40,982 nucleotides of DNA. Origin: Gonapodya prolifera JEL478 (lineage: Eukaryota > Monoblepharomycota > Monoblepharidomycetes > Monoblepharidales > Gonapodyaceae). The DNA is taken from NCBI GenBank assembly GCA_001574975.1, contig KQ965889.1:22746-63727 (forward strand). Direction: 5' to 3'. Under the pieces are notes generated by a model that ran no database searches, was not told the origin of the DNA, and saw only the letters and a program-made list of their open reading frames with translations. This document shows, in pieces, positions 3,477 through 40,412 of the stretch (positions within the stretch are counted from its first letter, which is position 1; each line of letters starts with the position of its first letter). Made by a program: the position numbers and the translations under genes.

Positions 3477-6400
3477 TTACACTACTCGCGCAAGTCTCTT
3501 AATTTCGAGCATAACGACCTGCAAGCCAACTAGTGAAACCGACGTGCCTCTGGCGGTGAAACGTCTCTGCCATAGTTCCAGAAATTGGCGGTAGTGTACA
3601 ATCAGTCGGGTCAAGACCGCTTTCAACGCAGAAAGACGTTACGTGCTATCATGACAACCACATCGCACGAGCGCCGAAAGGCCTACCTTGCAATACCCTC
3701 ACGCCGTTTGTGAGAGTATGAAACGATTGAAGTACACTCGGATTAACTTCGGAAATTGCTGTCTTCCAAATGCTGTTGAAGTCTGACGCAATGAGCTCCA
3801 CCTTCTGACCATCAATTTTGTCGGTTGCTGTCAGGTCGCCGGCACCAATCACATTTTCACACTGCACCACCACTAACGTAAGGATTCCAGTTAAACTAAG
3901 CTCTCTTTCGACATGAAGTCGAAATCCCTTTCTCACCTCCGATTAAACCGCTAAACCTTGGACGCAGCTGCTCCTCCACGTACTCAACCATTTTATTTGC
4001 AAGCACCTGGAACGCAAATCTTTCTCAAAGACCGTCATGAATTCGTCGCTGTCACACACACCCACATTTCCGAAGTAAAGCTTCTCGCTTTCGAAGGTGG
4101 GTGCCGTGTATTCCTTAGCAGACAGTTCGATGTGTGATTTCAGTACCAAGTAAACCATCGAACGTGCCTACCGATAGAATAGAGGTGACTAAATCGTAAT
4201 TGTTGATGAGGAATATGAGGCGACTGCGTCGGTCCCCAAACTCTGCACTCACTCTGAAAAGAAGACCTTCGATTTCGTTGCGAAGGCGCGAGAGGCTAAC
4301 AATGAGCGAGAGAAAGAGATGTTTTGTTGCAGAAGCAAATCAAAGCGATCTTTTAGCACCTGTTGTGGAGGAGTGCATCATCGTAGCCTTGGTTAAGTGT
4401 AAGAATTGAAGCTGCAAATTCACTATATCGACGAGTCACCTGAGGCAAAGAGCGATTTTGAAGGGGTGATTGCAATACGAAGGTATTAAAAAGATTCACT
4501 CACAAAATGCGGAGTGGAATCCTTCGTTGGGCCAATGAGCTTCGCAGCAGACACTTTTCTCAGGCTCTCACAATGCATGTCTATGAGCGACTGGAACCTC
4601 GGCCACAGTAACATCGTGATTGCGTTCGTGAAGCTTTCGATCCCGGGTATACGCCTCTTCTGCATGATGTGCTGGGCTTGCTGATTGAGTCCAATGCACA
4701 GCAGAAGACCAACGGCGTCACACGTGGACTCGGAGTACTGCTTCACGAGACTAAGTACGAGATTGAGCGTGGGCTCGAAAATCTCGGTGAATATGGATCC
4801 GGCAACACTGGTGCCCGAGGATCCGTGGCCCTGGCGACTGCGGGGCGAGAAGAAATATTCCGTGGTGAAGATGTACTCGGAGCTGGCGTTGTCAAGGAGA
4901 AGTCGAGTGACGTTCTTGAAGATGGCTTCGAATGGGTGTCGCCAAAATATTGCGCACCGAACTGTCGAAATCAGTTTGGCGTCAGACTTGACCTCCGCCA
5001 CTACCACGTACCGCATTATTCGCCTCCGCCATCGTCACAAGGATAATCCCGGGGTCTGGTTTCAACACCACCTGCACTCTATCTCCCAGGGCAAACACAT
5101 TCGCCTTATCGTTCACCACGGGCTTGCTGACAGCTCCACCCAATCCCAAGATGGACAGACCCCTACGGGCTCCCTCTTCCGCCATCAAGTCGGAGCGGTC
5201 CGACGATGCGGGCGCCTGCAATCGGAGTGCTGCGCGGCAGTAGCGGTCAAAGAGGGCGAGGTAGTGCGCTTGCAGCGTGGCGACGTAGACGGAGCGTATC
5301 TCGGACACGGCTTCAGCGTGGCGTTCGAGAAGGAACCAGTACATGTCGCGGTTCTTGAGGAGGACTGGGGTGGGGGGAAGGCGGTTGCGGTATGCGTGTG
5401 AGACGATGAAGGGGAATGGGGAATAATTCAAGAGAAGTTGAGGCTCGTGTTCATACCGTTCTGTTGAATTATGGCGACTTTCGTGGCCGTCGTGCGCAAG
5501 GCCTTTAATTTGTCTATAATAAAGTCTCGCAGACGTTCGGTCGCCTGGTTGGGTGAAATGCGTTGAGCATTAGCGCATTTTGTCCAGATGTGAACTGCAA
5601 AGAAGCTCGGCCACCACAAGTGGCCACGCACCTTCAACCTCAGTCGTTCAAGCTCCGGTCCGATCTCCTTGAACGCTCGCAGGACGTGTTTTCTCTGCTG
5701 GCCCTTCACGTACCCGATTTTGTCGGTGAGAAGCTGGACGGCCTCCATGTAGGAATCGTTGATTCGCCGTCGCAAATTTTACTGCATTTGTGTAAGAGAT
5801 ATTGAAGGTGGAGGGTGGAAGCAACAATGCCACAGCGGTGAAGCGTACCGGATAAGGGAGGGACTGACAACAACGCCGTCAAGAAGATCGCTGAGCTGTC
5901 GCTCAACAGCCTGCAACAGAATTCGCTGAGCAAACCAAACACCTGCGGGGCAGCACGCTGGACGCCCTACCCACCGATCTATTCTTCAGCTTCACGTCCA
6001 TCCGTTCACTCCTATCCTTCAAATCCCTGATCTCGTCGGCGAGTCCACCAAGTTCGGCTTGGAACCCCTCAAAAAGACCCTCGAGGTCGGACAAGAGGTC
6101 GCTACAGCGGGATATTTGCGAGTGCAGAGTCGTAAGTTGGCGGGATGAGGTGACGTCTGGTGGGGAATAAGTGGGAGAGGGGGCGTGACGTCGAGATGAA
6201 TTCGGAGTGAAGGGAGACATCGACGTTCCGCAACTCGAAATATCCGTGGCAGCAGTGAGCGACTATCCGAGCCAGCTAATGGCGGTAGGTATCTTCGGAT
6301 GATCCATCGCCTCTATGAAGTTCCGAAAGTAGGTGTATTCCCCTTCGCCGTGCATTCGCCCCAGCGGACAGCCTCGGTCAGCGCCTAGCGGCAATTAGGC

Positions 6401-6912
6401 CTCGGGCTCGCTGCACTCGCGGGGCTCAACTCACTTCACTCGGCTTCGCCTCGTTCGTTCCGTCTCCTCCCATGAGGAATTCACAATCCATGATGTGCTC
6501 GTTTTCGACACCTTTCAGCTGCTGCTCTATATCCTTGGCATATTGACGCAAGTCCACACCCTATACGGAGGTTTAACACGGTGAAGTAGGACATGAAAGT
6601 GAGATGCTCATTTGGGCGTGACTTCAGGCTTACCTTTTCGATCGCATCTCGAATAAGCGGGTCCTCGTAAAACATATCCTCGGAGATACCACCTTCACAT
6701 AATACGAAAAAACCCACGATGCGACGGGATTCATTATATTGGGTGGTGCTCTGCCAATTGTAACTTGTAGCTGGGTAGCTGGCGTTGCACACCTCGCCCA
6801 AGTCTTCATTCCATTCAGCAAATGAAGTTTCGTCCGAGTCAGCGTCATCGTCCTCGCCGCCACCACCCTGCAAGGAGTCGAGGTGTGAGCCGCGGGTACC
6901 GTAAGAGGCCAT
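3477..6912 (-). CDS. VPS52: VPS52, subunit of the GARP/EARP tethering complex
   Basis: VPS52 is a coiled-coil subunit of GARP, which tethers endosome-derived vesicles at the trans-Golgi. The proposed start ATG (6912-6910) leads an acidic N-terminus, then DPLIRDAIEKGVDLRQYAK and IEQQLKGVENEHIMD, which match the family N-terminus. A 328-bp intron (6157-6484) splits a Tyr codon, giving IMD-Y-VTSSRQLTTLHSQ. Further landmarks: LKDRSERMDVKLKNR, FIIDKLKALRTTATKVAIIQ, LKNRDMYWFLLERH, LWPRFQSLIDMHCESLRK, FLINNYDLVTSIL, VEYVEEQLRPRFSGLI, DFNSIWKTAISEVNPSVLQS, and last exon FLELWQRRFTARGTS to IKRLARVV, TAA at 3477-3479. One 34-residue in-frame insert near 6690-6790 has no homologous counterpart that I recognise and may be an unresolved intron. 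The open frame upstream of 6912 looks like a shadow of CCDC61. Confidence 0.9.
6339..6427 (-). repeat. GC-rich intronic repeat, copy in VPS52 intron
   Basis: Lies inside the 328-bp VPS52 intron (6157-6484). Read on the minus strand, 6427 to 6372 matches 22737-22793 of the DDB1 intron over about 57 bp with about five differences: gagccccgcgag block, then ccgaggcctaa, ccgctaggcgctgaccgagg. It is followed by a variant of the tccgccggaggcgaatgac module (here ccgctggggcgaatgc). It has the same sense as its host gene. Confidence 0.85.
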
Positions 6913-7129: not shown

Positions 7130-9150
7130 ATGGCCGCAGGCGCACCCGCGACGCTGCCGCTGACGATTGCAGGCGACGTGGGAAACTTCACGGTTACGCT
7201 CACGGTGCATTCGCTCGACGCAGCGCAGAACGCAGCGCAGGGAAGCAACGCGCGCAGAGCACCCGCGATGGGCATCGTGGCAGAAGAAAAGGATTCGCTC
7301 GAGATATGGAGGGCAGAGTTCACTGCTGATTGTGCGTTGTCCCGAAATCAATGCTGCATCGTCTCAAGGAAAAACAGTCGTAATAATCGAACGAACGTTC
7401 TGATTGCGAAAAGATGTGGAGGAAATATCGCGCCGAACGGGAAATGTCAAAAAATATCGCGTCTTTGTCGAAATGCTCGCGTCTGCGTTGCGAAAGGTGA
7501 GTTGCAATTCCTCTTATTGAACGTTTGGGGTGAAAGTCGCCTTATCCGTGTCCTACATCCCCAAAGATGAACTCAACAGTATCGCTCAGTGTCCTGACGG
7601 CTCGCGACCTCGTGCCCGCTGATCACCGCAAGCTCAAAGGTCCTGGTGCCACTCCGTTCCCTCCTTCCAACAAACGATACCTGGTGCTCGCGTACGAAGC
7701 TGCTTTTGACCGGTGAGCATCGGTGCGAGTTCTGGATTACGAAACACGGAAGACCGAGGCTGTCCGCCGGAGGCGAATGATCCGCGGAGCGGGAGAGTCA
7801 TGGTCGAAGCTGCCTGCCGGAGGCGAATTGACTGCGCGAAGCGCGAATAATGCAGCGCTATGGGCATATTCCAAACAGAGGCGAATGATCTACCCGAGGG
7901 AATACGAGAAAGGGTGGGTATGTAGGCAATGGACTGACCCCGACCAGCGTTTTCTATCCACTTCCCCTCGTCCCCCAAGACGATTACTCTCCCGAATCCG
8001 CTCGACGTGTTGTACGTGCCTTGAGAGCAGAAGTAGAGAAATTGCGGGGAGCAGTTGAGGAGAAGGATGGCGAGATCGCTCGGGTAGGTGAACCTGTACC
8101 ACCTTGATACCGCCACGTCTCACGGACGGTCGTGAACAACGTTAATGAAACGATGCGACATGTAGCTCGTTAACGAAAACGGAAATCTTCGGCGAACGCT
8201 CGAGCAGGCGCTGTCTCGCGATCGACCAGGCAAGGATCCGAACACCAACGGCCGGAATTTCATCGAGGAGCTGGACGAATTGCAGCGCGATATCGTCACA
8301 GACGTGAGTCTTTGTTTTCGGGGGTCGTGTTAAGTGATTGTTGCTAATTGTCAGATTCCATTCCGCCCGTTGAAACTTAGGATGGACGTTCACTTGCGAA
8401 CCACCTGTCACGTCTGGAAGACGTCATGCGCGCACTCCTTGTATGAAGTCTCTCATGTCTCTTTTCCTACTGCTTCACTCACAATGCACCCCTAGGCAAG
8501 ACTCGACACCCGCCGCTCGGCGGGGGATCCTCTTGTCAGATCTCGGTCTGATGTGGTTTCGGATCTCCACGAGAGGATTTCTGCCCACGCGAGAGGTCGA
8601 GCAGCTCCCTGGGACCGGGACTCGAGAGCCAAACGATTCGAAGAGTCACTGGAGAGGGGGAGACCCAGAGGACGAAGCACGAGGATAACGTGGGTGGCGC
8701 GCCAGGCTGCAGATGCAGGTACCGTTCTCAAACCCAATCGTCCAAAACGCCCCAATCGTGTTACAGCTCTCCAGCGACGCGCTCCTCCCCATACGCCCGC
8801 GGGTCCACGTCCGCCACCTCCACGCACCATCACCCGCTCGTGTCACCCCGCGCCACAACCCTCTCACCTCGGCCGCGACCGGCACCAATGACGTACCGCG
8901 CACCAACCCGCTCTCTCCCTCGCTCAACGCATTCCGCCCCCTCCCGCTCCCGATCTCTGTCACCGTTTCCCCGCTTCGACCCGACGGCGTATATCCGGGC
9001 CAGGGAAGGACGACTGCAAGAAGCGAGGGAGAAGGGTCGAGGGTGGAGCCCGGGCGGGTCTCCTGGCCGAGTAGGAGCGTCACCCTCCAGCCCAGGCCAG
9101 AGATTCGCGACGTGGACTGGGGGCAATGGAAGGTGGAATGGAGGAATGCA

Positions 9151-9195
<45 letters not shown>

Positions 9196-10015
9196 GTGGC
9201 GGAAAATGGGCTCGAGAGAAGGGTCGCAAGAGAGGAAGGTTGGAGAGTGGGGTCTTGGAAGTAGACCAGTATCGAAAGAGCGGACAGCAGGAGTGGGCGG
9301 GAATCGAAATCGGGGATTTGGGTCTGATACGTTAATCATTCGCGAGCCAACGCCAGGTAAGTGTTGCTTTGGTGGCATTGCGGGGTCTATACTTACTTTC
9401 CTTCTTAGTTTCACGTGGGTCATCGAAAAGCAGATCAAGTGAGTTCCTGCAAATACATGCACCTCGACTTGACTCAAATGGTGTGTGCTCATCTTGGGTG
9501 ATCGGACGGTCATTAGAACCACCAAGCATAGCGGCTTCCTCACGCTCGAATTCTATCACCGCTGCGTCAAATGCGGCACCGCTGAGACGTCGCAGTGAGT
9601 TGTTGATTTTTCTTTACAATGCCTGGTGGTGTTCGGCTCACCAGCTCGTCGTCATATTCTCGACCTTCTGGTGCAAGCCGATGAAACCTCATCGTCCCCA
9701 CCATCTACCTGGTCCGACGTGCGAGTGTGCTCCAATGGCGCAAGTACCAACACGATTCTGTCGTCCCGTGGAATGTTGGACCAGATTCCTGTACGAGATC
9801 GACGCCGTCCAAACGGTCGCGCGGTGAATGGAAGTAGTCGAGAGAGTTTTGTAGGACTTGTGGAACATGGTGAGCTCAGAGCAGGTTCGACTTCTATTTA
9901 TTTGTGAATCATGTGACGTGCCATTTTGACGTCTGCAGATTCGGTTGAGATTGATGGCAGACTTGCTGCTCTTTCCCAGCTCCTACGAGATGCTCACCAA
10001 GAACTCTCTTCTTGA
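7130..10015 (+). CDS. CCDC61: CCDC61/VFL3-like centriole and basal-body protein
   Basis: CCDC61 (VFL3 in Chlamydomonas) is an XRCC4-superfamily coiled-coil protein needed for basal-body rootlet assembly and centriole number or positioning. The N-terminal head is spread over exons 7130-7331 (GDVGNFTVTLTVHSL, LEIWRAEFTAD), 7414-7496 (YVEEISRRTGNVKKYRVFVE), 7567-7712 (STVSLSVLTARDL, SNKRYLVLAYEAAFDR) and 7948-8083 (VFYPLPLVPQDDY, then a coiled coil VVRALRAEVEKLRGAVEEKD). The middle is Arg/Ser/Pro-rich. FDPTAYIRAREGRLQEAREK near 8970 matches the family's FDPTAF-KA-ER motif, and the end SVEIDGRLAALSQLLRDAHQ resembles the C-terminal EIDARLxALQ. TGA at 10013-10015. The exon-intron structure between about 8700 and 9900 is uncertain. 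An in-frame hexanucleotide repeat gives Gly-Ala. Presence implies centrioles and a flagellated stage. Confidence 0.85.
7752..7892 (+). repeat. GC-rich intronic repeat, copy in CCDC61 intron
   Basis: The 235-bp intron 7713-7947 contains gaccgaggctgtccgccgg followed by aggcgaatga (7764-7780), then two more divergent copies of the ccggaggcgaatga module near 7816-7832 and 7875-7890, spaced about 52-60 bp. The joined element gaccgaggctgtccgc is shared with the VPS52 intron copy, and the ccgccggaggcgaatga module with the DDB1 copy. It has the sense orientation of the host gene. Confidence 0.82.
9151..9195 (+). repeat. In-frame hexanucleotide microsatellite (AGGAGC)n
   Basis: About seven and a half tandem aggagc units within CCDC61. 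In the frame that carries the FDPTAYIRAREG motif it encodes alternating Gly-Ala. Being a multiple of three, length changes would keep the frame. Confidence 0.95.
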
Positions 10016-10593
10016 AAATCTTGGTGCTGTGAACGGAACGCTTGTTTCCGCCGACATGCGGCGTCCGTCAAGTTCAAGTACGTTACACGAACACGAGTGT
10101 TGACTCTGATAGCAATACGAAAGCACTCTCTCTAGAGATTGAAGAGACATGTGAATATTAATGTTATGTATTTCGTATACCATCTATTTCACTTTTATGT
10201 AACGCAATTCCAAAACACGGAAAGCAATTGATCGCCAATTTTTTCGCTCAAAGCTACACTGACGACAAAGCTCCCGGCAAGATATACACTGACCGCCACG
10301 CCATTTTGCCCGCAACTTGAACTGGGGAGCAAGAGTGCGCCGGACATCGGGGGCTTGCGGGATTGAGTGAGACTGACATCGCGGGATCACGGGGATGTTT
10401 TTGGAGCATATAGCCCATTTGGGACTCTTGGAACATGATCCGAGTGGGTTCCAATCCAAAATGAGCGAGAATAATGGGGCATTGTGTCTAACTTCACTGA
10501 TGATGCCGATCGTCAACGTCGACCGCTTTGAATGAATTCACTCTCGTTCACTTTTGGGCAATGAAACTTGAATTCCACTTTATTACCCTCTGA
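10016..10593. other. Intergenic region between CCDC61 and RALGAPB
   Basis: No convincing gene is seen. A minus-strand open frame of about 110 codons (10184-10516) is Cys/Ser/Pro-rich, has no recognisable motif, and is probably chance. A short plus-strand frame from an ATG near 10454 ends at about 10532 and could be a 5' exon of RALGAPB, but I cannot join it convincingly. Confidence 0.5.
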
Positions 10594-10620
10594 ACTACGT
10601 CTGCTCTTCGTTACACTGGG

Positions 10621-13600
10621 ATAGCTTCGTCGATTCTCTCTCACTTTCCCCTTGACATCCGTCGCTCAATCATCCGCTCGGTAGCGGAGACACTTCTCGC
10701 TCCACCACCATCGCCAGGCGTTGTTTCCGGAGGCCTTGCGACATCTGCTTCATGGCTCACATCTCCATCGCACGTTCGGTGGTCCATGGAGGTGCTTGGG
10801 CAAGGCACACAACTTCCAATAATGCCAGCCGATATCGAGCTCATGAGTCTTTGTGTGAACGTCTACTCCGGGTGGCTTCTTCAGCGAGACCATAGACCTC
10901 TCGCTATTCGTTTTGTGCTACAGGGGTCTCCTGGTTCAGAAAGTGCCAATTCGCCAACTTCCGATTCTCCCCGCACGAATTCCCCAACTTCCCCTCCAGA
11001 TTTTGATCCGTCTCGCAATGCCACTCTTCAGTATTTTCTTCAAACCATGTTCAAGCATTTGTCACTTGTCTTCCAACCGCGGACTCTTTCAGGAGATAAT
11101 TTCTTCCCAACCCTAACATCCACGTCTGCCGCACACCCACTCAGCTCAGAGCAGCCGAAGTCTGCTGTTATTTCTAATCCTGCATTTCCCTCATCGCCTT
11201 ACGGAGTCGCCTTTGGACTTGCAATGGTCGGAGCACCAATGGTTCCTTACCTCATGGCAATTCCAGCAACCCCGATTAGCGGAACATCTCCTGTCATACC
11301 ACCAACCTCCGTGCCATCTCTCAGTGAATTACGTGATAATTTGCGCCCTTCGACTCTCTCCCAACAACCACCAGCTCCACGCTCCCCAGACCCGCAGCGA
11401 TTTATTCCGGCAACTGGGTCAAGTGCTTCCTTTCGCGCATCATCTTTTGATGCCGGTATTAGTGACCTTCCCCAGCCATCTATTCCTACCGTTTCCTCGG
11501 GTGACTCAACGACAACTAAGAGGCGCACGTGGGGTGGAATCACGCTTCCTGGTTCCCTTTCCGGAGGCCAAGGACTCATCTCCACCACACCATCCGGCGG
11601 CAATGGGAGCGCCCCGGCACAGCATTCAATTCCTCATGCATCATCAAATCAAGGAAGCGGAGCTGGCGGTTCAGCTGGTTTAACTGCTGGAGTTGGGCAA
11701 GGTGGCGCCACGCCAATAACAACAACCCACATAACCCACCTCGGAGACCGGGATCGATCAGAAAAGGATCGCGATAAAAGTTTGGTGACCCCTCCTGCCC
11801 TCGCAACCGGGACAATATCTAGCGAGGAGCAAGCCGAAGCAGGTCGACGCCATTTAGAGCTGTGCAGGGCAGTTCTGGGTGTTTGGAGCGTTTGTGGACG
11901 ACAACTTGCAGGCGAAATGAATCAAGAGTACGTCTTGCTTTAATTGCGTATGTCTTGCCGGGCCCAAATTATTTCCTTTGCTCTTCCAGAACGTGGCTTG
12001 TCCTCTTGAAGATTATTCTCGGAGTTGCGGATTGCCTTCTCTCCGAACCTCGCGCAAAAGATGGTGGCGGCATGGGTGGTGCTATGGCAGACGAACTAGG
12101 CACAACAATACTCTCCGTGAGTTCAAAGTTTCACAAAGCTTCGAGATGTGACGTGGTCATACTGAACTTTTCAAATTTGTTGCAGGTTCTCTTTGACCTA
12201 ATGCTGCGTTCACGAATTCGAAATCCGAAAATATGGCTGATTATGAAGGCGTACTTTTGCAGATGGACGCACCGAGTGGAAGCAGTCATTCAGTGGGCGG
12301 AAACCGCGGCACTCCTGACCGAAAAGGTTGTTTCAGGACTATATGGAGGAATGTGAGGTTTAAAATACTCGGATTGTGGGGGTTTCCGTGCGTTACAGTA
12401 TGAACTTTCCCACAGGTCACCCGAAGAAAGGACTGGAGATTTCGCGAATTACGCTTGGCATAAAATTACTTGTAAGTCTTCTTTTATCAATGCGTAGCGA
12501 AGGCGACATGATCAAATCCATTATAAGATGTAATTTCGAATCCGAATCTCCAGAACCCTGAAAATTTCGAGGTTGCAATAAGAGTAAGTCGCATCTGAAT
12601 TGTCTTTAATAAAGTTTTCACTTTGAGCTAGCTCAAAACTAGGGATTATCTCGGCTTGTTGACATTTACCACTCTGTATCAAATCCTGATGACGCACCCC
12701 TTGACAGAGCACCGTCGAAAGTACCTCTTTCTCCCGATGGAAATACTTTATTAGGAATGTTTGGATCTTGGCTTTTTGAAGCAGCGGTGCGAGACGGAGT
12801 GCAGTGCGTTATCTTACTGCCCTTTCTTGCACCGTCTTATATGCATCACGCTCCCCTTTCCAAGATACGAGGCGGGCAGAGCTGATGCTTTGGCAATACT
12901 TTGTCGCATATTTTCACGTCCACAGCGCCGAGCTCCGTTCCTCCGAGCTTATCTTGCCCGATTCTATTCCTCAGTTTCCGGGGGTCTACGGGGTGGTCCA
13001 CTAGCACTCACCTCGATCCTTACTAATACAACGGAGCTTTTCGCCCGAGATCTAGAAGGTAGTCGGGTTCTGGTGCCTGATTTTGTGATTGCCATCAGGA
13101 GGGTTGTGCCAAGGGTGAGCTGCCCATTTGTTTGAAGACTAACGAACTGAGCTCACGAGGATCTTCATATTTGAAGACGCCTCCCGACTTTAGATCAAAT
13201 GTTTCCCATCCTGAGCTAAGGCGTGCTTGTTTCCAAATAATCGGAACACTCCTCGCACTTCCGAACCACTTTGAAACGGTGCCCATACGTGGCGCAAGCT
13301 CCAGTGACAGAGGCCATCGTGGAGATAATCGGAATCTTCCGATTGGCAGGACTCCGTCACCACTTGATCTGAAATCTGTGCTGGATTGGGTCACAAGTGC
13401 AGAAACTCTCACACGAGACCTTCATAGTTCACAACAAAATGTCAACGAGGCTGGGGTAGTTTCACAACAACGGAGAGAGTCTCTACAAGTCACCCCACAA
13501 GGTGGTGTGCTTTCGGCCGTCGGCGGTATGGATCAGTACAATTTGGGAATTTTGCAACCAGATAATGGCAGCGATCCGCAAAAGCAATTCGTGTCCCCAC

Positions 13601-16600
13601 CGGAAAAGTCATCTGTCAAGGGACAGCTGAGTCGAAGTGACGGTGACGAGGGAGAAGGGTCCCCTTCAAAGAGACTGGACAAAGCCCCACCACCGAAGAT
13701 CGTCACGTCCGGCGGACAAGACTTGATCTCCGATCAACCCGTGAGTGTTAACGTAAACCGAACTTCCTGAGCTTAAACTGGACTGTTTTCTTTCCAGATG
13801 AAAGAAGTTCGAAATTCGGCCCAGAAGTGGGATGTGCAGGCTGAGTTACGGACCATTCTCGAGGGTTGGGACATCGCCGACAGTCCAGATTCCGACGCCA
13901 AACGGCCCCTCAGTCAAGGTGATCTCACTCATTTAGTAAGCGTTCGACGAATTACACAGTGACAACCTCAGTGTTCCAACAATTATCTTCCCCCCAAAAG
14001 TTTCTGGGCATCTACAGGAACCAAGATGGATCCAACAAGTATGAGTCGCAGCTTACTCTCGGAATGGTGTGCACCTCTCCTTGCGGTTACGTCTTTTATA
14101 TCTCGCGACTTGACACTGTATTGCCATCTTATAGCTGAAACCAATTGTTGTCGGACTGCTTGTCACTTCTCTAATAGTTGAAAGTGACTCACAGAACACC
14201 CGGATTGTCTTGCATCTGCTCACCTGTTTTGTCATCGAAGATGTGGGCTTCTGTCCCGGACTACCAGGACGGGTAATTCAAAGCATTCAGGAAAAGGTAG
14301 GTTCATTCGACCACCTCTGGCATTTATCAAAAGTCTTCAATTATGATGACAGATTCTTCAAGGAAGCTGGTCGGTCGAGGTTACACTTTCAGCGTTCGAG
14401 ACGCTGACTCATTACTTGAGTTTGTGGGAATACATAAAGCGAGATACGAAGGTGAGACTTTCGCCTTTTTGGTCCCATGGTAGAACATTTACCCACGAGT
14501 TCACAAGCCTGTTCCAAGAGAACTCGTCATTGATTTGTGTCGCTATATTGAGGATTTGCTTAGCGAGGACAGCGTCGTGAGTTTGTCTGTTGGAAATACT
14601 CATCGTTCAACCACCTTTCCACGTCAAATCCCTTGCGCGTAGCCGTATCAAAGCTTACAAACGCTGATAATGCAGGCTTACGATTGCATGATTCGTTGGG
14701 CACTGACGGGACATTGGATTGCAAATGATCATGACTGTCTTCAAACAGTTCTCTCCACTCTATCACGTGGTATTTCGTTGATGGACGACACTGACTTTGG
14801 GGCTGTCAGTGTGCAGCATCCCACGGGAGGCCGTCCGGTTGGATCTTTGGGACCGATGTTAACACAGGCAGGAATTGCAGTATCGAACACACTCTCCCCG
14901 GCTGGTGGTGGTGGAGCCTTGCGAGAAACGAATATCGGTTTTGTAGACAAGTTTTCAGGTGTGGTGCAGAGCATAACCGACACCAGCGCGTCCCGAAAGA
15001 AAGGCAGAAAAGGTACCAAAGGGTTTGGAAGCCCGGGTTCCACTCTCACCGAAAAAGATAAACCTCATTCTCGAGGGGCAACTCAAACTTTGGGGCCTTC
15101 GACTGGGACTTTGGGAGTCAGCAGTAGCACCCACGATGGTGGAGTCGGATTCCCGTCTTTCGCAGCTCAGTCATTCGCACTTTGGGTAAAGCTCACTGCA
15201 GAGGTGGCATTGACACAGGTTTTGAACTATTTGGGAAGCTTTCCCCCTTTTGGAGAGGTTACAGGTGTGAGCAGACTCGGCAGTATGTGGAACGAAGTCC
15301 AAGATGTTCGTCGCTTTCTGGAAGATCGTGAGGCTCAAGGGACGTTAGCACAGAAGCAAGGGAGGTCAAGCACATCTTCCACGTTCTCCACAGCTCATTT
15401 ACTAGCTGAAGAATTCAAGGGTCGGCTTCGTGGCCGACAAACTGGGCAAATTCCGCTCCCCATAGACGAGATGCGAAAGTATCTTCGATACTACACCATT
15501 GAAAGTCGCGTGATCGTAGGAGTGTTGGAAAGGCCAGAACTACATACGGATCGGGAGTCAGTTGAAGATCTGAACGGTGAAAGTGTATCTCGAGACGAAG
15601 TGTTTGGTCGGACAGGTGGGGCAACACTGAAAGGGAGCTCGCGAGATGTCCTTCTTGAGACAAGTGGTAGCCAGTTTTCAATCTCAGATGCAGAAAAGAA
15701 CACCAAGCGCGGTCCCTCCGTCGCAGCCGTGATCCGTGACGCTACTGGAAGATTTTCTTGGGTTTCTTTCCTCAAGTACGTTCCCGACGGCCCGGACGAA
15801 CTTGTTTCTCGAAACACATTTCCCAGAGCGGCAGTGCCTGTTGTAACAACTTCGGGGGCAACCACTACACCTCATCAATTGACGGCGAGCCTTCCAGCCC
15901 GAAATTCTCCACATGCGGCATCACTCTCTGACGTCCGCCACCCTTCAGCAGTTCTTGGAACAGAGGCATTTTCTGTGGACACCCAGGTATCAATCGCCAA
16001 TGATCACGACACTCACATTGAGAGACCGATCCAGGCAATGAGTGGTCCTAATCCCAGCACTACACTCGTAGGGGCTATGACCGAGCTTCCATCGACTCAT
16101 GCTCGTCTAGCTACGATACCCTCAGGAGAAGTGTCACCTCCTACGTTTGGTGATGAATCGGTGGTACAAACAATGAAACAGTTCATCCCATCTAATGCTC
16201 CATACCTGCCTGATGCTCCAGTCCTATCCTTACAAGGGTATAACGACTCTGCAATACCCCCTGTTGCGGAGCTTTTTTCACCCGAATCTGAGTCCAATAT
16301 GGCGTACGAAGCTATGACACTGCTAACGAAACGTCAAACCCGGAAAGAAAACGAAGTACTCGCATCTATTCAATCGAATCAGTGAGTTCTCACATGGGGT
16401 GTGTGCTTAATTGTTCTGGCACTGACATGAATCACCTATAAGAATGTCTTTAATGAATCATCATATTTCAAGCTCCCCTCCCGAGTCTTCTTTGAACGAT
16501 GTGGAGCAAATGTGAGAGTAATTCTTTCAACATAGCTCCAATAAAAGGTTACCTCACATTTCCCGATTACATCTGAAATGTTAAAGCCCCCAAGCTGCAC

Positions 16601-17981
16601 GATTACTCCTTTCACATCTGGGATTTCTCACACTTCAGAACAGGCATCGTGTCTCTCCTTTGACCCTGACTGAAGGTCTGCTGAGGGATTTGGAAAAGCT
16701 GGATAGAATTCCCGAGTGAGTCAAATAACAAGCTGACCAATCTCGCATGAACCATCCAAACACCACATTTTGCAGGCGAGAATGCTTTGGCGTCACCATT
16801 TTGTTTGCGCGATCTGGGGTGGATCAGGTCGAGCAGATTATTCATGCACCAAGCATCAGCTATGATTTCGAGAAATTTCTTCATTCCATTTCATGGCCGG
16901 TGGGTGCACTAAATATTAATGCATTAAAGAGGGTATCATTTTTATGTGGTTCTCTGCTGATCCATGCTAGGTGGACATGAAGACTCACCCAGGTTTTCGT
17001 GGAAACTTGGACGCATCTATATGCGACACTGCACCGTACTACGCCAACCGAAATGTTGAAGTTATCTTTCACGTGCCCTACTATATGCACAGCGCTGCTC
17101 CCGCAGCAAAGGAGTTCTCCAGATCATATTCGACTCCCCGACAGACCTCCGGTGCACCGAACAGGCAACGCTCCGCAGTCTCTTTCTCTCAGAGTTTGGA
17201 TCAAACGAAAGTTTCCAATGTACCATCAGCTCTATCAAGTCCTGTTAATCTACCATCTCCTCTCAACGTTGTGACCTCCGGTGATCAGTTTAACAATGCT
17301 CCCGAGACAGAGCAGGACGGCCTCTCTTCTCCTAACCCGGCTGATAGCAAGGGTAACGGCACGGATACTTCTCCCGCACAGACCGCATCTAGAAGGGCTG
17401 CGCTTCGGTCCACCTTTCTCCAGGTTTCGCAGGAGGACTTGGTCTACATCGTCTGGGTGGAAGACATGAAGCATTTCCTTACTCTTCCAAAGAAAATCGG
17501 CCGTGGACAGATCTACATCTTCATTCATCCACTGCAGAATTCTCCGGGGCTGTACAATGTTCGACTTCACACTGCAGGGGGTGCAATCAGCTCCGACGAT
17601 CTTTTGGTGAGGATGGGGACGGATTCGTCGAATCTTGAAAATAAGCGCATATTTCATTGTCGCTCAATGTGTCAACTTTTCCGGTAGGTCTTTGGCCCCT
17701 TACTCGATGGAATGATCATCAGTAGGCACGCAATGGGGCACCTCGTTCGGATCACAGCGATTTCAGCACAGATGCACTGCACTTCATCTACGGGTAGAAA
17801 CCAGAGTAGACCGTGAGTGGTGGGAAATGTTTGATCTGTTTGATTGAATCTTTGATGAGCTTTTCCATGGAACTTAAACATGCATAGTTTCATGCAACGG
17901 AGACATGAAATCGAGGAGCTTTGCAAGAAGCACCGCAAATCCCTCGGTGTCTCTGCGTTTTACTGTGATTTGTTTGGTTAG
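10621..17981 (+). CDS. RALGAPB: Ral GTPase-activating protein beta subunit (RALGAPB)
   Basis: RALGAPB is the non-catalytic partner that stabilises the catalytic alpha subunit in a GAP complex for Ral/Rheb-like GTPases, analogous to TSC1/TSC2. Recognisable blocks in order: RWSMEVLGQGTQLPI with LCVNVYSGWLL near 10780; TWLVLLKIILGVADCLLSEP near 11990; a conserved GMFGSWLFEAAV segment at about 12755; YEAGRADALAILCRIFSRP and LRAYLARFYSS near 12870; HPELRRACFQIIGTLLALP near 13210; VPDGPDELVSR near 15780; HLGFLTLQNRHRVSPL near 16620; THPGFRGNLDASICDTAPYY near 16984; then VYIVWVEDMKHF, IYIFIHPLQNSPGLYNVRLH, and a last block LLDGMIISRHAMGHLVRIT, with TAG at 17979-17981. More than fifteen short introns are likely. 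A Ser/Pro-rich insert of about 250 residues follows the first block. The 5' end is unresolved: the frame is open only from 10594 and no upstream ATG is obvious. Confidence 0.85.
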
Positions 17982-18274
17982 CTGTCTGGCATATTTGCTA
18001 TGGTACTGGCGCCACTCTGCATGAATAATAAGATCGATTACATATCTGCATAGTCCGGCACGCAAGGTACGAAGAGCTCAAAGGCTGAAACAGATTAATT
18101 GTGGCTAGAAGTATTGTCTGATGTCAATTGTTGTGAACCGGGTCCTTATATTGACCTTAGTTTCACATCATTCGTTCAAAATAAATCTCATTTTAAGGTA
18201 TTCGATACGTGAATTAAGTTTATCCGTTTTTCGCCACACTCCGTATATAAGAAAGCACATTTAGTCCACATTCG
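17982..18274. other. Convergent intergenic region
   Basis: Lies between the stop codons of RALGAPB (+) and the GH26-like gene (-). It is AT-richer than its neighbours and contains a tatataa at about 18244. I see no gene here; it presumably holds both 3' untranslated regions. Confidence 0.5.
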
Positions 18275-22322: not shown

Positions 22323-25300
22323 ATGGTGAGCACACACGCGGAAGAGGACTCCAGCGCGGGCGCAGAGTTCGATTCACAGCGTGTCTCTTCTTTTCTGACG
22401 CTCGCCCTCGTCCCTCCGTCTCCGTCTTCCGTGGCCCTTCCAATCCCCGCTGCACCCACGCATCCCACCACACGTACAGGCGCTCAACGCATATGCAGTG
22501 ACCGCCCACCACGCAACGTCTGTCGGTCACGCGGTCAGGGGGAACTTTACGGGGCCAGACACGCTCAACCTCGTCCTGGCAAAGGGATCTCGCATAGAGG
22601 TCTACGAGTGTGCCGGTGCACGTGATCAGGGAATCAGGCTGGTTCATGCAGCCAATGTTTTTGGAAGGATAGCGGTGTTGGAGTTGTTTAGGCCGCAGGT
22701 GGGTCGGTGGTGAGGGGGGCCGAGCGACGTGGAGTCGAGCCCCGCGAGCGCAGCGAGCACCGAGGCCTAAGCGCCGCTTGGCGCTGACCGAGGACACGAG
22801 CGAAGCGAGTGTGTCCGCCGGAGGCGAATGACCTTGCGGAGCGCTTATCTCCGCCGGAGGTAAATACCCCGCGGAACGGAATGTTCTTCGCGAAGCGACA
22901 GCGAGGCCTAAGCGCCGCTAGGTGCTGACCGAGGACTCCGCCGGAGGCGAATGACCTGCGGGAAGCGCGACTATCTAGCGCGGAGCGCATGACGTCGTGG
23001 TACTTTCGATCCGTGCTCTCCTTCTCTCCTTTCAACTTACATCCCACACACTTCACAACTCACCCATCCCACCACACTCCCCTCACCCCTCCCCCCCCAG
23101 TCCCGTACCACCGACCTCCTCTTCCTCTCCACCGAGCGATACCAATACTGCGTTCTCTCCTGGGACGTCTTCACCTCGTCCTTCCACACCGAAGTTACAG
23201 GCGACGCGTCGGAACGCACCGGGCGGCCAACCGACGCGGGCCAGATTGGGTGCATAGACCCCCTGGCGCGGTGTGTCGCCCTCCATGTGTATCAGGGTAG
23301 CGTCAAGATTTTTGCGGTCGCGAATTCAGAGGCGCAGTTGAGGGAGTTTGGCGGACGTGGCGCGGCAGTCGCAACGTCGGGGATGCGAGTCGGAGTGGGG
23401 GGTGCCAACTCCACGTCGTCCTCGACAACCACCACCCCCACTGCACGCACGCCCAAACTCGGCGACCTCTCGCCGCCCCACACTCTCCGGCTCGACGAAA
23501 ACTCCATACTCTCCCTGTGCTTTCTCCACCCCACCGACGCGCGCGCGGGCGCCCGCCCGACCCTCGCCGTGCTGTACCAGGACCATAAGGACACGCGCCA
23601 CTTGCGCACCTACAGCGTGAATCTGGCGCATTTGGACAGGGATTTGGAGCAGGGTTGGAACCTTGAGAAGGTCGAACCAGGGGCCGCGGTGTTAGTGGCC
23701 GTTCCAGGGCCGGTTGGTGAGTGTCTTGCGTCGTTGCAGGAGGATGAGGTTTCGGGTGTGAAGGTCGTAACTCTGAGAGGCTGAGCTAAGCAATGGCAAA
23801 AGCTGGACTGTGATTTATCTCCCATCACTTATTTTTCGCGCCCATCCCACTCCACCAGGCGGCGTGCTGATCATCGGAGAGCAGACCATTACTTACGTTG
23901 GTAATTCGGGCAAGAGAGTCGTGTCGGTGCCGATGGAGGTGACGATTGTCAAGGCGTACGTATACGCGTGGCTAGGGGCTAGGGGGGCAGGGTGTGAATG
24001 AAGTGCATGGGAGTGGTGGTATGCTGGGCACAAATGAAAGGATGTTGGGTTAGGGGTTAAATCGATTCCTTCCGAGGAATGAAGAACACTCGTGTTTATC
24101 CCCCGTTATGTCTCCCCACTCCTTTGCTGATCTCACCGATTTACTCCCCATCTTCCACCAGCGCGACTCACCTTGCCACCACACCCACATCCTCGCGCTT
24201 CCTCCTCGCCGACCTCTACGGGTCGCTCACGCTGCTCCTACTACACATCAACGGCGAGGGCATCGTGTCCAGCATTTCTCTCGAACCGCTGGGCGTCACG
24301 TCGTCGCCGACATGCTTGGTCCACTTGAACCCGGACTTGGTCTTTGTCGGGTCCCATTTCGGGGACTCCCAGCTGCTGCGCCTTCTCACGCACCCGTCCA
24401 CTACCGCGCCGCCGACCTACCCGCCTCAATTGTTTGACATCCTCGCGACGTACCCTTCGCTGTCCCCCATTGTGGACTTCACCGTCGTGGACTTAGATGG
24501 TCGCGGGCAGGGGACCGTCGTGGCGTGCTGTGGGGGGTTCAAGGATGGGAGTGTGAGGGTGGTCAGGAACGGTGTGGGCGTGAGTGAGATTGCGGGTGTG
24601 GAGGTCGAGGGCGTGAGGGGGGTGTGGAGTTTGAGAGAAGGGTTTGGGGCAAAGTGAGTTGATGCTGTCTGGGGGCAATGGATGAAACCAAGGATCCTCT
24701 CTCAACTGAAACCAAATGCCCACACCGCCAGATACCACACGACGCTCGCTCTCTCCTTCGCCACCGAAACACGCTTCCTCCTCGTCGACCCATCCACATC
24801 CGAACTCTCCGAACACGACCCCGCCGCGCTGGTCTCCTCGTCCCCCTCGCTCCTTCTCGCCACCATGGCCGCCGACTGCGTGCTTCAAGTGACCCCTGAG
24901 GCGGTCGTGTTGGCCGATACCGACATGGCCATGAAACTCGCCGAGTGGACACCCGAGGGCGGCGCACACATCACCGCCGCCGCGTGCAGCCCGACGCAAG
25001 TCGTGGTGGCCCTGGCGGGGGGCACCGTTGTTTACTTCACGGTCCCGATCGGGCGACCTGAACTTGAACTCGTATCGCGCCGCGCGATGGAGCAGGAAGT
25101 CGCGTGCGTGGACGTGTCGCCGCTTCGGGAGGGCGAGCCTTCCGAGTTCGTGGCGGTAGGCTTGTGGACGGATAATAGCGTGCGGGTGTTGAGTGTCCCT
25201 GGGTTGCATGAGGTCGAGAGGGAGGATGTGGCGGGTGATGTGGTGCCGAGGTCGGTCGTGATGGCGGAGTTGGAGGGCGTGCAGTATGTCATGGTGGGGA

Positions 25301-30739: not shown

Positions 30740-33700
30740 ATGGCTTCACCAACTTCCCCTCTTTCCCCACCGTCTGTGACGTCTCCCACATCCCCGTCTT
30801 CCGCAATGTCGGCAATCTCTGCAGCCGCTGCCCTGTCCAGGATGAATGGCGGGACAAATCACCTGCAGGAGGAGAAAGTCTACAGGACTGGTCATGTCGA
30901 TGTCAAGCACGACATGGTCAACAGAGTCACCCCGTCCAAGGAGAGAAACTGGAAGCAAGCATTTGTTGCGCTGAAGGGAAACCTGCTGTTTGTGTACGAT
31001 AAGGAGAAGGACGTGAGTGTCAACAACGATGTCCACGGACTTGGACAGTCAGGAAGGAGGATAAGCCTCATCGTGAGACCTACTGAACGGATTGACACAT
31101 TACGGATCGTAAAGCTACGGGCAACTGCCGACGTCAACGAACTTCTCCACGCCACATACCTTCGGAGCTTGCACGGAATTTTGCTAACTCCACACTGCTG
31201 TCCTCCCAGTACACCTCCAACAAACCCCCCACCTGGCTCGTCTCTCTCAGCGACACGACCGTCACTCCCGTCCCGCTCTACAAGGACGGGAAGCGGGAGC
31301 ACATTCTCCGCATCCAAGGCCCCGATGGGTCTTCGTACCTCATGCAATGCACCTCGGACGCCGACAGGACGTCGTGGGCGCTCAACCTCGAAGCGCGAGC
31401 GAGGGACGCTTGCGATTTCAAGGGCGCAAAGATCAGGCAGGAGATTGAGCTGCTCAGGGCGTATTTGGCGCAGACAATCGAGCCGTTTGGTGATGGCGAG
31501 ATGCCAGAGGCTATTACACGGGTACGTGGTCAGTGTATTTTTGGGTACCATTGATCTGGAACCATGCTTGCCCTCTTAATCGTCGACCTATCATACCATT
31601 CCTGGTCCCGTTCGTGGTTTCTCCTCGCCTCGAAATCCCGCCAACCGCCTCAGCAACTCGAGAAAATCACCGACGACATCGCGCGCAAAGAATTTGCACT
31701 CTCTCAACTCGACTCCACCGACTCGGACCAAGATATCTCCCCTTCCACCCTCCCGCCCCTCAGCAGCACGTCCCACTCCAAAATCGCCTCCCGATCATCC
31801 ATGGGATCCTTCTCGCAAACTTTGGGGCACTCTCCAGCGGCTTCCGCTGGTGGAACGTTCCGCCCAACTGCGGGGTCCGGGGTGGGCGTCGGCGGGGCCG
31901 GGTTCGTCACTGGGGGGAGACCGCGCGGGGAGTCGGCCGCGTCCCGACAGGGTGCGCCACCACCGAGATCGACTCTGACGGGTGTACGAGCGAGGGGTGC
32001 GACAATCACCAGAGGCGGGTTGGGAGCTGGAGCTGGAGTGAAGCCGGGAGGAAGTGTGGACCAGCTGGGGTCGCCCAAAGTCTCTCCAACTCAGGCGCAA
32101 GGGTCGAGCTCACCGGATTTGCTTGGTGGAGATCAAGACGAGAACATGGCTGGATCTCCACCCTCACCTCCACCACCTCCACCACCTCCACCTCCACCGT
32201 CCGGTCGCACACCAGCGCCTCCCTCCCCACCCTCCAACGACGACACAGATGACGCGCAAGCTCCCGGATCGCTCGCTGCCCAACTCGCCGCCAAACGAAA
32301 GCAATTTGTCAAAGAAACACCACCGGATGACGGGTCTACCACCGGCGGAGCTCCTCCGCCACCACCACCTCCTCCGGCGCCAGGAGGTGGACCAAAAAAG
32401 CCGGCACTGGCATCGACGTCAAGCTCTCACGATGCGTTTTATGCAGGTTCGGGCGACCCGCCACCACCACCTCCTCCACCTCCACCGCCAGGAGGATCAA
32501 AGCCCAAACCTGCGGCTACGTCACAACCCGCCCCGGCAGAGGACGACTCGGAAGGCGCGCCTGCGGCAGGCTCGCTCGCGGCTCAGCTGCTCGCAAGGCG
32601 GAAGCAAGTCGTTAAAGAAGAATCAGAAACAAGCGGCGGTGACGAGCAGGACGGACCTCCACCACCACCTCCACCTCCGCCTCCGGGGCTCGCAAAGAAG
32701 GCGGTACCGGTAGAGGATTCGGCAAGTCCGTCACGTCCAGGTGGGCCGCCACCACCTCCGCCGCCACCTCCCCCAACGGGTGGGCGGAAAGCGGCACCGG
32801 TTGCCGTGGGAGGAACAATGAAGGGAACAGTCAAGACCCCGCCCCAAGCCTCAGCGACCTCGGGTGCCGAAGATAGTAGATCTATTGGTGGAGTACCTCC
32901 AGCACCTCCACCGCCTCCGCCCCCTCCTCCGCCGCCTCCTCCACCAAACAATACCGCTCCAACAGGCAACACCGTCAAGAAGCCGGCAGTGGCGAGTTCC
33001 ACTAACGAAGACGCAAGTACACCACCGGCGCCAGGCTCCTTCGTTGCGCAGATCCAAGCGAGGAGAAAGAAGCTGGCTGGGAGCTTGGACGGGGATGACG
33101 GGGGTCTGGCTGTTGCAGGTGTGACGTCGGTGGCAGAACGGCAGGGCACGATTGGACGACGGGATCCACCTGCTGGAGGTGGTGGCCCTCCCCCGCCTCC
33201 ACCACCGCCACCCCCAGGTGGAGCGAAGGGTAAGGTCGCTGCCGGAGGTACATTGACAAGAAATGCAGCGGAAGAGGGGGCGCAAGGAGGTGCTCCGCCG
33301 CCTCCTCCACCTCCGCCGCCTGGGTCAGGTCCCCGCAACACATCACCACCCCCACCTCCGCCTTCATCAAATGGGGGCCCTCCGCCTCCACCGCCTCCAC
33401 CACCTCCCGGCGGGATGTCCAAGGGCACAATCAAACCTTCCGGTTGTGCACCGCCACCACCTCCGCCATCATCGAATGGGGTCCCTCCGCCTCCGCCTCC
33501 ACCTCCTTCACCTGGCGCGATGCCAAAAGGCACAATAAAATCTTCAGGTAGTGCACCTCCACCACCTCCGCCACCTGGTGCAGCGAGAAAAAATGAAAGT
33601 GACGGGGACAAGGCACCCTCAGGTCCTCCAGGCAGTCTTGCCGAACAAATCGCTGCTGCGGCGAGGTTGAAGAAGGCTGGCGGTGGTGTGCCAAAACCTG

Positions 33701-33997: not shown

Positions 33998-36119
33998 TCA
34001 GACACCCGAATCATCCATTTCCCACGTTTTCGGCCATGAGTCCCAATTCTTGCATACACGGTCGTAGTCTTGGATCTCGCTCGCAACAACGGCTGGTATT
34101 TCATCTGGCCTTTCAACAAACTGCATGGCCAAACCTTGGCTGACGTGCCATGCCTGTTTGATACAACGAGTACTCAGTTGATATCACAAACGTCCCGATT
34201 GGAGAGATCAAACTTACAATATGGCAGTGCATGAGCCATGATCCAGGATTGTCTGTCAACATCGCAATGACAGTGTAGCCGCCACCGTAGAGTGTCACAG
34301 TATCCCTCCGCGGCGGGTTCACCGTATTCAAGTTGACGAGTAGGGGTACAAAAGGTCCCTTTCCTTGTGCGAGAATGTAGAAGTCGTGCCCATGCAGGTG
34401 CATGGGGTGGAACGCATTGACTAGTGTCAGGTCTTGAATGACCCAGTACGCCCATTTGTTGGCCGGTTTGACGGTGTACACGTTGGACTTGGTAGGCAGG
34501 GATAAGTCTCCATTGTAAATGGATCGCGTGGTCGGGTCTGACCAGTTCACTTCAAGAGACTTGGAGTGGAGTGTCCAATGGAAAACAAGATCGAGCTCGT
34601 AGTACCTGAATTGACAAGACCAAGTGCGTCAATGGTCTGTGCGGGAAGACAGCGACACATTATCTCAAACAGAAAGACGCACCATTGCAAAGCGATATTG
34701 TCAAGTATAGTGGCTCCACCGACGTTTATTGCTACCCAGGGTACGAGGTTGCTTGGTTTCTCATCACCGCATGAGTTTGTAATTGTTGGCGAGACCTTGG
34801 TCGTTGGAAGAGCAGTCTGGTCCGCACCAACATATCGGAACACGCCAAGAATATTGTTCTTGTTGCCGTTGTCGTTTTGGTTGCATGCTGCAAACAATTA
34901 CCGCATTGATTTCCAAAGATATCTCGTTGCAAAACTAGCAACACTCACCTGTTTGGTATATCGCACGGATCCAATAGTTTCCAATCGGCTGATTTGCTTC
35001 CACTACAATATCGTACCTCTGCCCAGACACGATTATGATGTTATCTGTCTCGTAGGGCACTATCGGCACAAAGTCAGCAGAGATGACTTTGAATTTATGC
35101 CCGTCGATGGTGAACTTGAAGTACCCGTCGACTTGTGCACCAATAATCCGCATGCGATACTTGTTCCGACTGGTGACGTTGACTTGAAACCTGGCACCTC
35201 CACCCTTGCATTTGGGGTCAGTCGAGCGAGAGCAGTCGTAGGGGTTCAACCCGTTAATGAGGCCGTTCTCCAAGACGGGTTGGTAGAGCGCCACCTTGCG
35301 TTGAGTCCACTGCCAAATGGTGAACGCCGAGACGTGGCCCCAATCTTGCAGCATGACGGGGCCAAGATCCACGTCGTAATTGGCAGTTGCGGGTCCGTAA
35401 ATCACAAGCGGGCCGACCATACCGTCACCGAGCTGAAGGCTGAAATGGGAATGATAGAAAGATGTGCCGTACTGCGTTGCATGGAATTTGTACGTCATTG
35501 TGTCACCGGGTGCGATGGGGCACTGCGTCACGCCAGGAACGCCGTCAGCGTTGTTTGTATTTCGTTGCTGGATACCGTGCCAGTGGATTGCAGTGCTTGC
35601 GGTCGGGAAGGAAGTCGGCACATCAATTGTCATTTGGTAACTTTTGATGAATGGCAGGCGATGAAGCACTCACCCATTGTCCAAAAGGTTATTTGTGACG
35701 TGTATGACAATATTGTCACCCCAGTTCGCCTCAATCAAAGGTCCAGGTATTGTCCCATTGAACGTGAGTACCTGGCGCTCGTACCCATCAGGCGCCAGCG
35801 TTGTGCTCATGACGGAGAGCCAGTACTGATAGTGGTGCAGGAGGAAACATATTAACCCGCCGCCTGACAGGTACCACCACCCTTAAATCAGTCATCAAAA
35901 GCAGCTCACCTCCCGCGTAACGCCCGTGTTGGGAACGACTTCGTACCAGTTCGTATTGATATCGTACTGGCCCCAGCACTGGCGATTTGCTGGTCCATTT
36001 GCGCAGCTCGCCCGACTCGACAGATGTGGCCCATCTTTTGATGTGAACGCGGGCAGGGCGGGCAGGGCGGAGCCCAGTGACAGGAAGGAAACGAGCGATA
36101 CCACAGCCACCAGCTTCAT
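33998..36119 (-). CDS. Laccase (multicopper oxidase), ascomycete-type
   Basis: Secreted copper oxidase of phenols with O2 reduction to water. The ATG at 36119-36117 begins a signal peptide ([20 protein letters not shown]). Domains in order: [130 protein letters not shown], and across an intron [18 protein letters not shown]. All four copper motifs are complete. The residue ten after the type-1 Cys is Leu, as in many fungal laccases. The protein ends DDSGV (TCA at 33998-34000 on the plus strand), like the DSG(L/I/V) C-terminal plug of ascomycete laccases. Four or more short introns. A broken copy of one exon-intron piece lies at 40236-40412. Confidence 0.92.
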
Positions 36120-40235: not shown

Positions 40236-40412
40236 TGCTGCGGTCGAGAAGGAAGACACATCAATTGTCATTTGGTAACTTTAGATGAATGGCAGGCGAT
40301 GGAGCACTCACCCATTGTCCAAAAATTTATTCGCGAAGTGTATGATAACATTGTCACCCCAGTTCGCCTCAATCAAAGGCCCAGGTATTGTTCGGTTGAT
40401 CGTTAGTACCTG
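40236..40412 (-). pseudogene. Laccase fragment (partial duplicate of 35600-35777)
   Basis: The minus strand encodes [33 protein letters not shown] and then a gtgagt donor and about 60 bp of intron, matching the intact laccase at 35600-35777 in exon and intron alike with roughly 10-15% differences by eye. No further laccase motif (HWHGI, HSHF, HCH) is found on either side, so this is a truncated genomic duplicate, not a gene. Homology stops abruptly near 40412 (caggta) and near 40236. Confidence 0.9.

Follow-up and report, generated by a model that had tools for sequence, protein, structure and literature searches.

Introns of three genes on the two strands of a 40,982-nt stretch of Gonapodya prolifera JEL478 DNA (hereafter the window, part of contig C159) contain a common GC-rich repeat. 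An earlier note, made from the letters alone, took this repeat for a candidate introner or another small mobile element. The locus raises the question of whether such an element makes introns or enters introns that already exist.

The earlier note had reported that about 57 bp, with about five differences, are common to the introns of VPS52 and DDB1. Alignment of minus-strand positions 6427-6372 with plus-strand positions 22737-22793 gave 4 substitutions and 1 one-base gap, as reported, and the same match was recovered (34 nt, 91%) in an independent repeat search of the window. The VPS52 intron (6157..6484, minus strand, 328 nt) was given identical coordinates by the gene finder; the joined protein has a Sec3_CC match (1.1e-8) spanning the junction and a Vps52_CC match (7.8e-12) that starts there. 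The intron is indeed unusually long, as had been claimed, compared to a median of 97.5 nt for 244 element-free introns. It hosts one element copy with an intact head (6297..6466, minus strand; nhmmer E 2.6e-39, model positions 1-174). The head, GAGACGG..., begins at 6466, 18 nt past the intron start, and the core motif with its hairpin (6372..6405, minus strand; 2 mismatches to the core pattern) is common to DDB1 positions 22760-22793 (91%).

The DDB1 intron (22699..23100, plus strand, 402 nt) was likewise called by the gene finder, and its joined protein matches PF10433 (RSE1/DDB1/CPSF1 propeller, 5.9e-32) across the junction. A G-run at 22714..22719 (plus strand) lies between the donor and the element copy (22719..22995, plus strand), which consists of two rounds of core and downstream modules (nhmmer matches at 22719-22847, E 7.9e-27, and 22890-22995, E 9.3e-18), with plus-strand cores at 22760-22793 and 22901-22934. 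The third host intron, in CCDC61, was read by hand as 7713..7947 (plus strand, 235 nt) and by the gene finder as 7713-7979, with a later acceptor. It holds a partial copy with another head type, represented by modules downstream of the core (7752..7871, plus strand; two nhmmer matches, E 2.2e-8 and 3.4e-4). CCDC61 is a cilium gene. A fitting domain was found in nine of the ten joined proteins that were checked, CCDC61 being the unconvincing one, with no CCDC61 domain match and only a sub-threshold Geminin match. At E 0.001 the element profile had no match in the window beyond these three introns, which carry one repeat family in the sense of their host genes.

We next searched the whole genome (47.6 Mb, 207 contigs). 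The strict 5′ head GAGACGGAACGAACGAGGCGAAG (up to 2 mismatches) was found at 50 places, the core CCGAGGCCTAAGCGCCGCTAGGCGCTGACCGAGG (up to 3 mismatches) at 219, and the module CCGCCGGAGGCGAATGA (exact match) at 87, while reversed-pattern controls for all three gave 0 matches. These counts are lower bounds: of the three element-bearing introns in the window, the core pattern catches those of VPS52 and DDB1 and misses that of CCDC61. At a density of three introns per 41 kb the genome would contain some thousands of copies, a figure that three cases are too few to support. In total, 88 copies were read with their flanks, 49 chosen by head and 39 by core. Of the 50 places with the head pattern, two were dropped from the head loci: L001, the copy in VPS52, and L007, which was judged to repeat L006 at the end of a contig. 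L010, found in a DNA search, was added. The core loci are those of the 219 places with 0-1 mismatch, among the matches listed, that head loci did not cover, so that diverged copies are under-sampled. L006 and L007 lie at the ends of contigs C23 and C22, apparently with the same end sequence and the same element match at equal distance from the end, and appear to be an assembly duplicate or a haplotype pair.

Copies were assigned to genes with a gene finder trained solely on the window and the fetched loci and run with repeats masked. Seventy-two of the 88 lie in introns in sense orientation, 3 in introns in antisense orientation, and 13 where no gene was predicted. For head copies the numbers are 36, 3 (L002, L026, and L048) and 10, respectively; among core copies 36 are in sense introns and 3 outside predicted genes. 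When repeats were left unmasked, one core copy shifted from a sense intron to no gene. Further copies within the same loci are in sense introns in 7 out of 7 cases. The sense share of intronic copies (72/75) differs strongly from one half (P-value 1.9e-18); coding bases within the loci amount to 75.8 kb in sense vs 11.9 kb in antisense, according to the gene finder. Introns make up 28% of predicted non-coding bases of the window (7,702/27,653), a rough yardstick, as the finder misses genes. For example, it leaves 9599-18274 geneless despite a Rap_GAP match there, and some of the 13 copies without a gene may be intronic. The host exons are real, and the 127 exons flanking the 72 sense copies (66 + 61) match 26 and 24 Pfam families, some overlapping (E 1e-4, sense strand scanned), including ubiquitin hydrolase, thiolase, Thg1, VPS11, and Kti12. 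A few hosts are paralogues of one another. Hosts such as VPS52, DDB1, ubiquitin hydrolase, P450, and others are nuclear-type genes with spliceosomal introns rather than organellar ones. The earlier note had proposed a genome-wide tabulation by location and strand, and had named an even spread through intergenic DNA on both strands as the pattern that would speak against its reading; no such spread occurred in the 88-copy sample. Intronic location and sense bias are well supported.

To compare introns with and without the element, we used 367 introns, of which 84 are element-bearing and 244 element-free; 39 with slight similarity were left out. Element-bearing introns have a median length of 332 nt (n = 84), compared to 97.5 nt (n = 244) for element-free ones. 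The element lies close to the donor: the head starts 2-65 nt from it in 30 of 35 head introns (103-298 nt in the other five), and the first profile match of core copies falls 0-88 nt past it in 31 of 35 (142-247 nt in four). The fixed start of the head is partly due to selection, since head copies were chosen by their head. A run of at least five G at +7..+46 is present in 44/84 element introns vs 23/244 element-free ones, and such a run separates donor and element in 28/36 head introns and 13/35 core introns. In L045 a G-run of more than 60 bases stands shortly 5′ of the element head. Element-free introns have a G frequency of 0.31-0.34 vs 0.23-0.27 for C at +7..+36.

By reading, the head is followed by a few modules in a fairly constant order, then by the core hairpin, and then by GCCGGAGGCGAATGA and GCGCGAAGCGC-like modules, which are sometimes repeated. 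The core is common to several different head types. Small hairpins with a 4-bp stem and a 3-nt loop occur at 11.0 per kb, compared to 3.9 in mononucleotide shuffles and 3.6 in flanks; GGA and GAA loops account for 97 of the small three-base-loop hairpins, and the middle base of the heptamer GCGNAGC is freer than the others. Outer pairs of the stem are largely preserved among 67 core copies, whereas the loop varies in length and sequence.

In 35 head introns the (masked) sequence common to the copies gives out 40-594 nt before the acceptor, and in 36 sense core introns it does so 14-520 nt before it. The element comes to 18 nt from the acceptor in L063 and to 14 nt in L086, where the gene model is doubtful. 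Used as a query, the 245-nt intron of L035 matched others to base 168 and once to base 212 (42 matches listed; best 40 of 205 candidates scored); 41 other stretches were matched, none beyond base 212 among the matches listed. The 3′ part of the intron therefore looks private to each gene. Introners, as defined in PMC9860276, show similarity that comes as near as 10 intronic or 5 exonic bases to each of the two splice sites, which these introns do not. The same survey asks for a group of at least four similar introns in unrelated genes, and here the 72 sense introns are hosted by genes of many Pfam families.

Paralogues of host genes were compared at seven host sites (L043, L085, L066, L081/L082, L012, L035, and L065). 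Six paralogues at four of them have element-free introns at the same place: 77 nt in L111 (L043 site), 58 nt in L115 and L116 (L085 site), about 65 nt by eye in L102 and 91 nt in L103 (L066 site), and 149 nt in L117 (L081/L082 site). No element was found in these six introns by the element profile at E 1, which did match L114, a sister of L085. The L043 and L111 exons are 88/100 and 92/100 identical on the two sides of the intron; two further paralogues, L109 and L110, read straight across the L043 site by eye. At the L066 site more distant paralogues align straight across, and the L066 intron too may therefore be young. The single other paralogue at the L065 site is too distant to be informative.

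At two sites the whole intron is missing from relatives. The L012 intron, whose acceptor as given by the gene finder was corrected by the paralogue alignment, is absent from all four paralogues (L043, L109, L110, and L111). The trypsin-like L035 intron (245 nt) is lacking in 10 of 11 fetched paralogues (L091-L101; closest 84% identical at the DNA level), with L099 ambiguous and three more distant matches left out. Together, the intron is absent in 14 of 15 paralogues, with one ambiguous, and intron birth with or near the element is possible. Without the element, about 50-70 nt would remain by eye in L012 and L035, so these introns could also be older than the element. A second intron of L012 (from 1364) is one base off the position of the L043 intron; a short run of its sequence looks like element modules and may be a decayed copy. 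Positions of element-free introns also differ among paralogues (L097-L101, L109, and L110), and intron turnover may therefore be high in general in this genome.

Signs of insertion were sought as duplicated flanks. The clearest case is L036, where a 22-bp direct repeat with 21 identical positions, GTTGGCTGTCGGTGGGCAATTC and GTTGCCTGTCGGTGGGCAATTC, flanks the G-run and the element inside the intron. The downstream exon of L036 matches VPS11 and the upstream exon has no Pfam match. No inverted repeats were seen by reading at the ends of the L036 insert, the sole copy inspected. The second case is the pair of L043 and L111. L111 reads GAATGTT followed by CCAAATTATAG, and L043 reads GAATGTT, then the element (GAGACGG...), then CAAATTATAG. 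The L111 stretch TTGCGTGGGTGGGAAGAATGTT has a counterpart on either side of the L043 element: on the right, with flank, 20/29 positions match by eye, and on the left stands an expanded G-rich version. This amounts to a diverged duplication of about 22 nt; MAFFT chose the right-hand copy, and the alignment on the left is ambiguous. Taken by itself, the pair leaves the direction unsettled, as L043 could have gained the element or L111 could have lost it between the repeats. Weaker candidates are L014 (11 bp), L003 (12/14), and L061 (12/13).

No general target-site duplication was detected in 59 introns (6.16 for matched flanks vs 6.05, P-value 0.23) or in 70 introns (6.20 vs 6.08, P-value 0.19). 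With G-runs masked in the 70-intron test, 0.17% of mismatched pairs reach the L036 score. Element introns showed no repeats in register at the splice junctions, and no duplication was seen in the L035 intron. The absence of a class-wide duplication is weak evidence either way, since the copies that were read are mostly diverged.

Given the element-free paralogue introns and the duplications at L036 and L043, copies seem to insert into existing introns; two cases, one with an element-free counterpart and one with direct repeats of about 22 bp, support this. Of the earlier note's introner or mobile reading, one part stands, a genome-wide family of intronic, sense-oriented copies with signs of insertion (the empty L111 intron and the L036 repeat). 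That the element makes introns as its main mode was not supported, given the unshared acceptor side and the element-free introns of six paralogues.

Intronic location, sense orientation, donor proximity, and the G-run are evident in the sample that was read. The explanation that we favor, at slightly less than an even chance, is a short, non-coding, non-autonomous mobile element of about 100-350 nt, which enters introns downstream of the donor, a probable route being target-primed reverse transcription of an RNA antisense to the host. We propose such an RNA because the sense strand carries a G tract next to the fixed end of the element, because the opposite end varies, and because duplications, about 20 bp long, are seen. 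In this scheme the antisense strand would be the mobile RNA, its 3′ end being fixed (...CCGUCUC) and extended by a C-rich tail. This tail could anneal to the G-rich sense strand just past the donor, perhaps exposed by transcription, and target-primed reverse transcription would then lay down the G-run, head, core, and modules, with variable stop points. Orientation, position, the G-run, the duplications, and the variable downstream end would all result from this one step. Against it, more than one head type is seen after the G-run, so that the RNA would have no single, constant 3′ sequence. Also counting against it are the lack of a class-wide target-site duplication and of any duplication in the L035 intron, the ambiguous L043/L111 alignment, the 13 copies outside predicted genes, the 3 antisense copies, and the possible youth of the L066 intron. 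The genome contains 50 reverse-transcriptase matches; in three non-LTR candidate regions, picked by match length only, no significant profile match tied a reverse transcriptase to the element (best E 5.2). It is a tentative idea, which we hold to be on the unlikely side, that the retroposon targets the 5′ splice sites of genes under transcription, with the G-rich non-template strand just past the donor, perhaps in R-loops, serving as primer on a C-tailed antisense RNA. If true, insertions would land in introns in one orientation and be spliced out with little harm, and from there it would be a short step to new introns.

A second explanation, which we regard as unlikely but worth serious attention, is spread at the DNA level: 5′ halves of introns (donor, G-run, and modules) would copy one another through gene conversion or template switching with G-runs as anchors, and slippage would expand the hairpin modules. 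The excess of small hairpins described above is in line with it, as is the reiteration of modules in L023, which has five element-profile matches. L029 and L030 share an identical 5′ half of the element and then diverge, and the closely similar permease genes L085 and L114 have different heads. This head swap and patchwork identity point to gene conversion or template switching as a further process at work on element sequences, and it may be the main one. Yet such copying does not predict the 22-bp repeat of L036, and G-run anchors in intergenic DNA should work equally well.

Less probable still, and in our judgment quite unlikely, is that the copies are introners or introner-like elements, each of which arrived in an exon and became a whole intron; the private 3′ parts would then be products of decay, and the element-free paralogue introns would be old introners minus their interior. 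The intron missing from relatives of L035 and L012, the uninterrupted L109 and L110, and the near approach of the element to the acceptor in L063 and L086 favor this view. Element introns also differ from element-free ones in phase 0 (45/84 vs 79/244, P-value 0.0007) and in G at exon position -1 (64/84 vs 129/244, P-value 0.0002). It is opposed by the early end of the L035 matches, the six paralogues with element-free introns at four sites, the location of the L036 repeats inside the intron, the possible greater age of the L012 and L035 introns, and the likewise variable positions of element-free introns among L035 and L012 paralogues. An end-to-end introner was not supported as the general case, the acceptor side not being common to the copies.

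In other organisms, G-runs close to donors act as splicing enhancers, and the outer pairs of the core stem are mostly kept, but a functional intronic RNA or splicing enhancer selected in sense is very improbable: most introns lack the element, the VPS52 intron has no Rfam match up to E 5, and the VPS52 copy, the sole one folded, is no better than shuffles (z 0.38 as RNA, z 0.33 as DNA), so that a role of RNA structure was set aside in spite of the enriched small hairpins. As a possible part of an RNA polymerase III promoter, a B-box-like GGCTCGACTCC was noted by eye on the antisense strand.

SINEs are short and non-coding, with a homopolymer-like tract at one end, a variable other end, and direct repeats. 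The proposed donor-proximal retroposon resembles them in being short and non-coding, with a tract at one end and, in one clear case, repeats of about 22 bp. It differs in that its tail would be C-rich, its intronic copies run with the host gene in 72 cases and against it in 3, its VPS52 copy has no RNA family match, and a partner LINE was not found in the three candidate regions. We also considered the repetitive hairpin-forming or double-hairpin elements of mitochondria, of which Allomyces offers a case. Like the family described here, such elements (PMC2800124) are dispersed clusters of small GC-rich hairpins; unlike them, this family resides in introns of nuclear-type genes in one orientation. 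Fungal ILEs and Micromonas IEs likewise comprise many sequence-similar introns of unrelated genes, in sense by necessity, but there the repeat spans the entire intron, whereas in the present family the 3′ portion looks private to each gene and the same site can hold an element-free intron in paralogues. Fungal introners are described as gene-biased and devoid of TSDs and TIRs in PMC9860276. This 2022 survey counts introns as introners only if similarity extends close to the two splice boundaries, and classes other cases as secondary insertions; a family like the present one would therefore be set aside by it. No known case of such a donor-side intron family was recognised in a search of open-licence papers.

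The usual expectation for mobile elements within introns is that they become scarcer close to splice sites and in sense orientation. The family goes against this expectation in 72 of the 88 copies that were read. Should the preference act at insertion, it would represent a safe-harbour strategy linked to transcription or the 5′ splice site. The family would then also offer an intermediate stage, open to testing, between elements that simply reside in introns and introners.

Several other features of the window were observed. The stretch 9599-18274 contains long open frames, including the Rap_GAP match at 16971 and a 580-aa frame with no Pfam match. Proline-rich coding repeats in a long open frame at 32145-33600 resemble a formin-like FH1 region by eye, and a 105-nt tandem unit lies within this frame at 33344-33573. 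A 156-nt direct repeat (35619-35774 and 40257-40412), of which one copy in a single frame gave no Pfam match, is 90% identical between its two copies, 4.6 kb apart.
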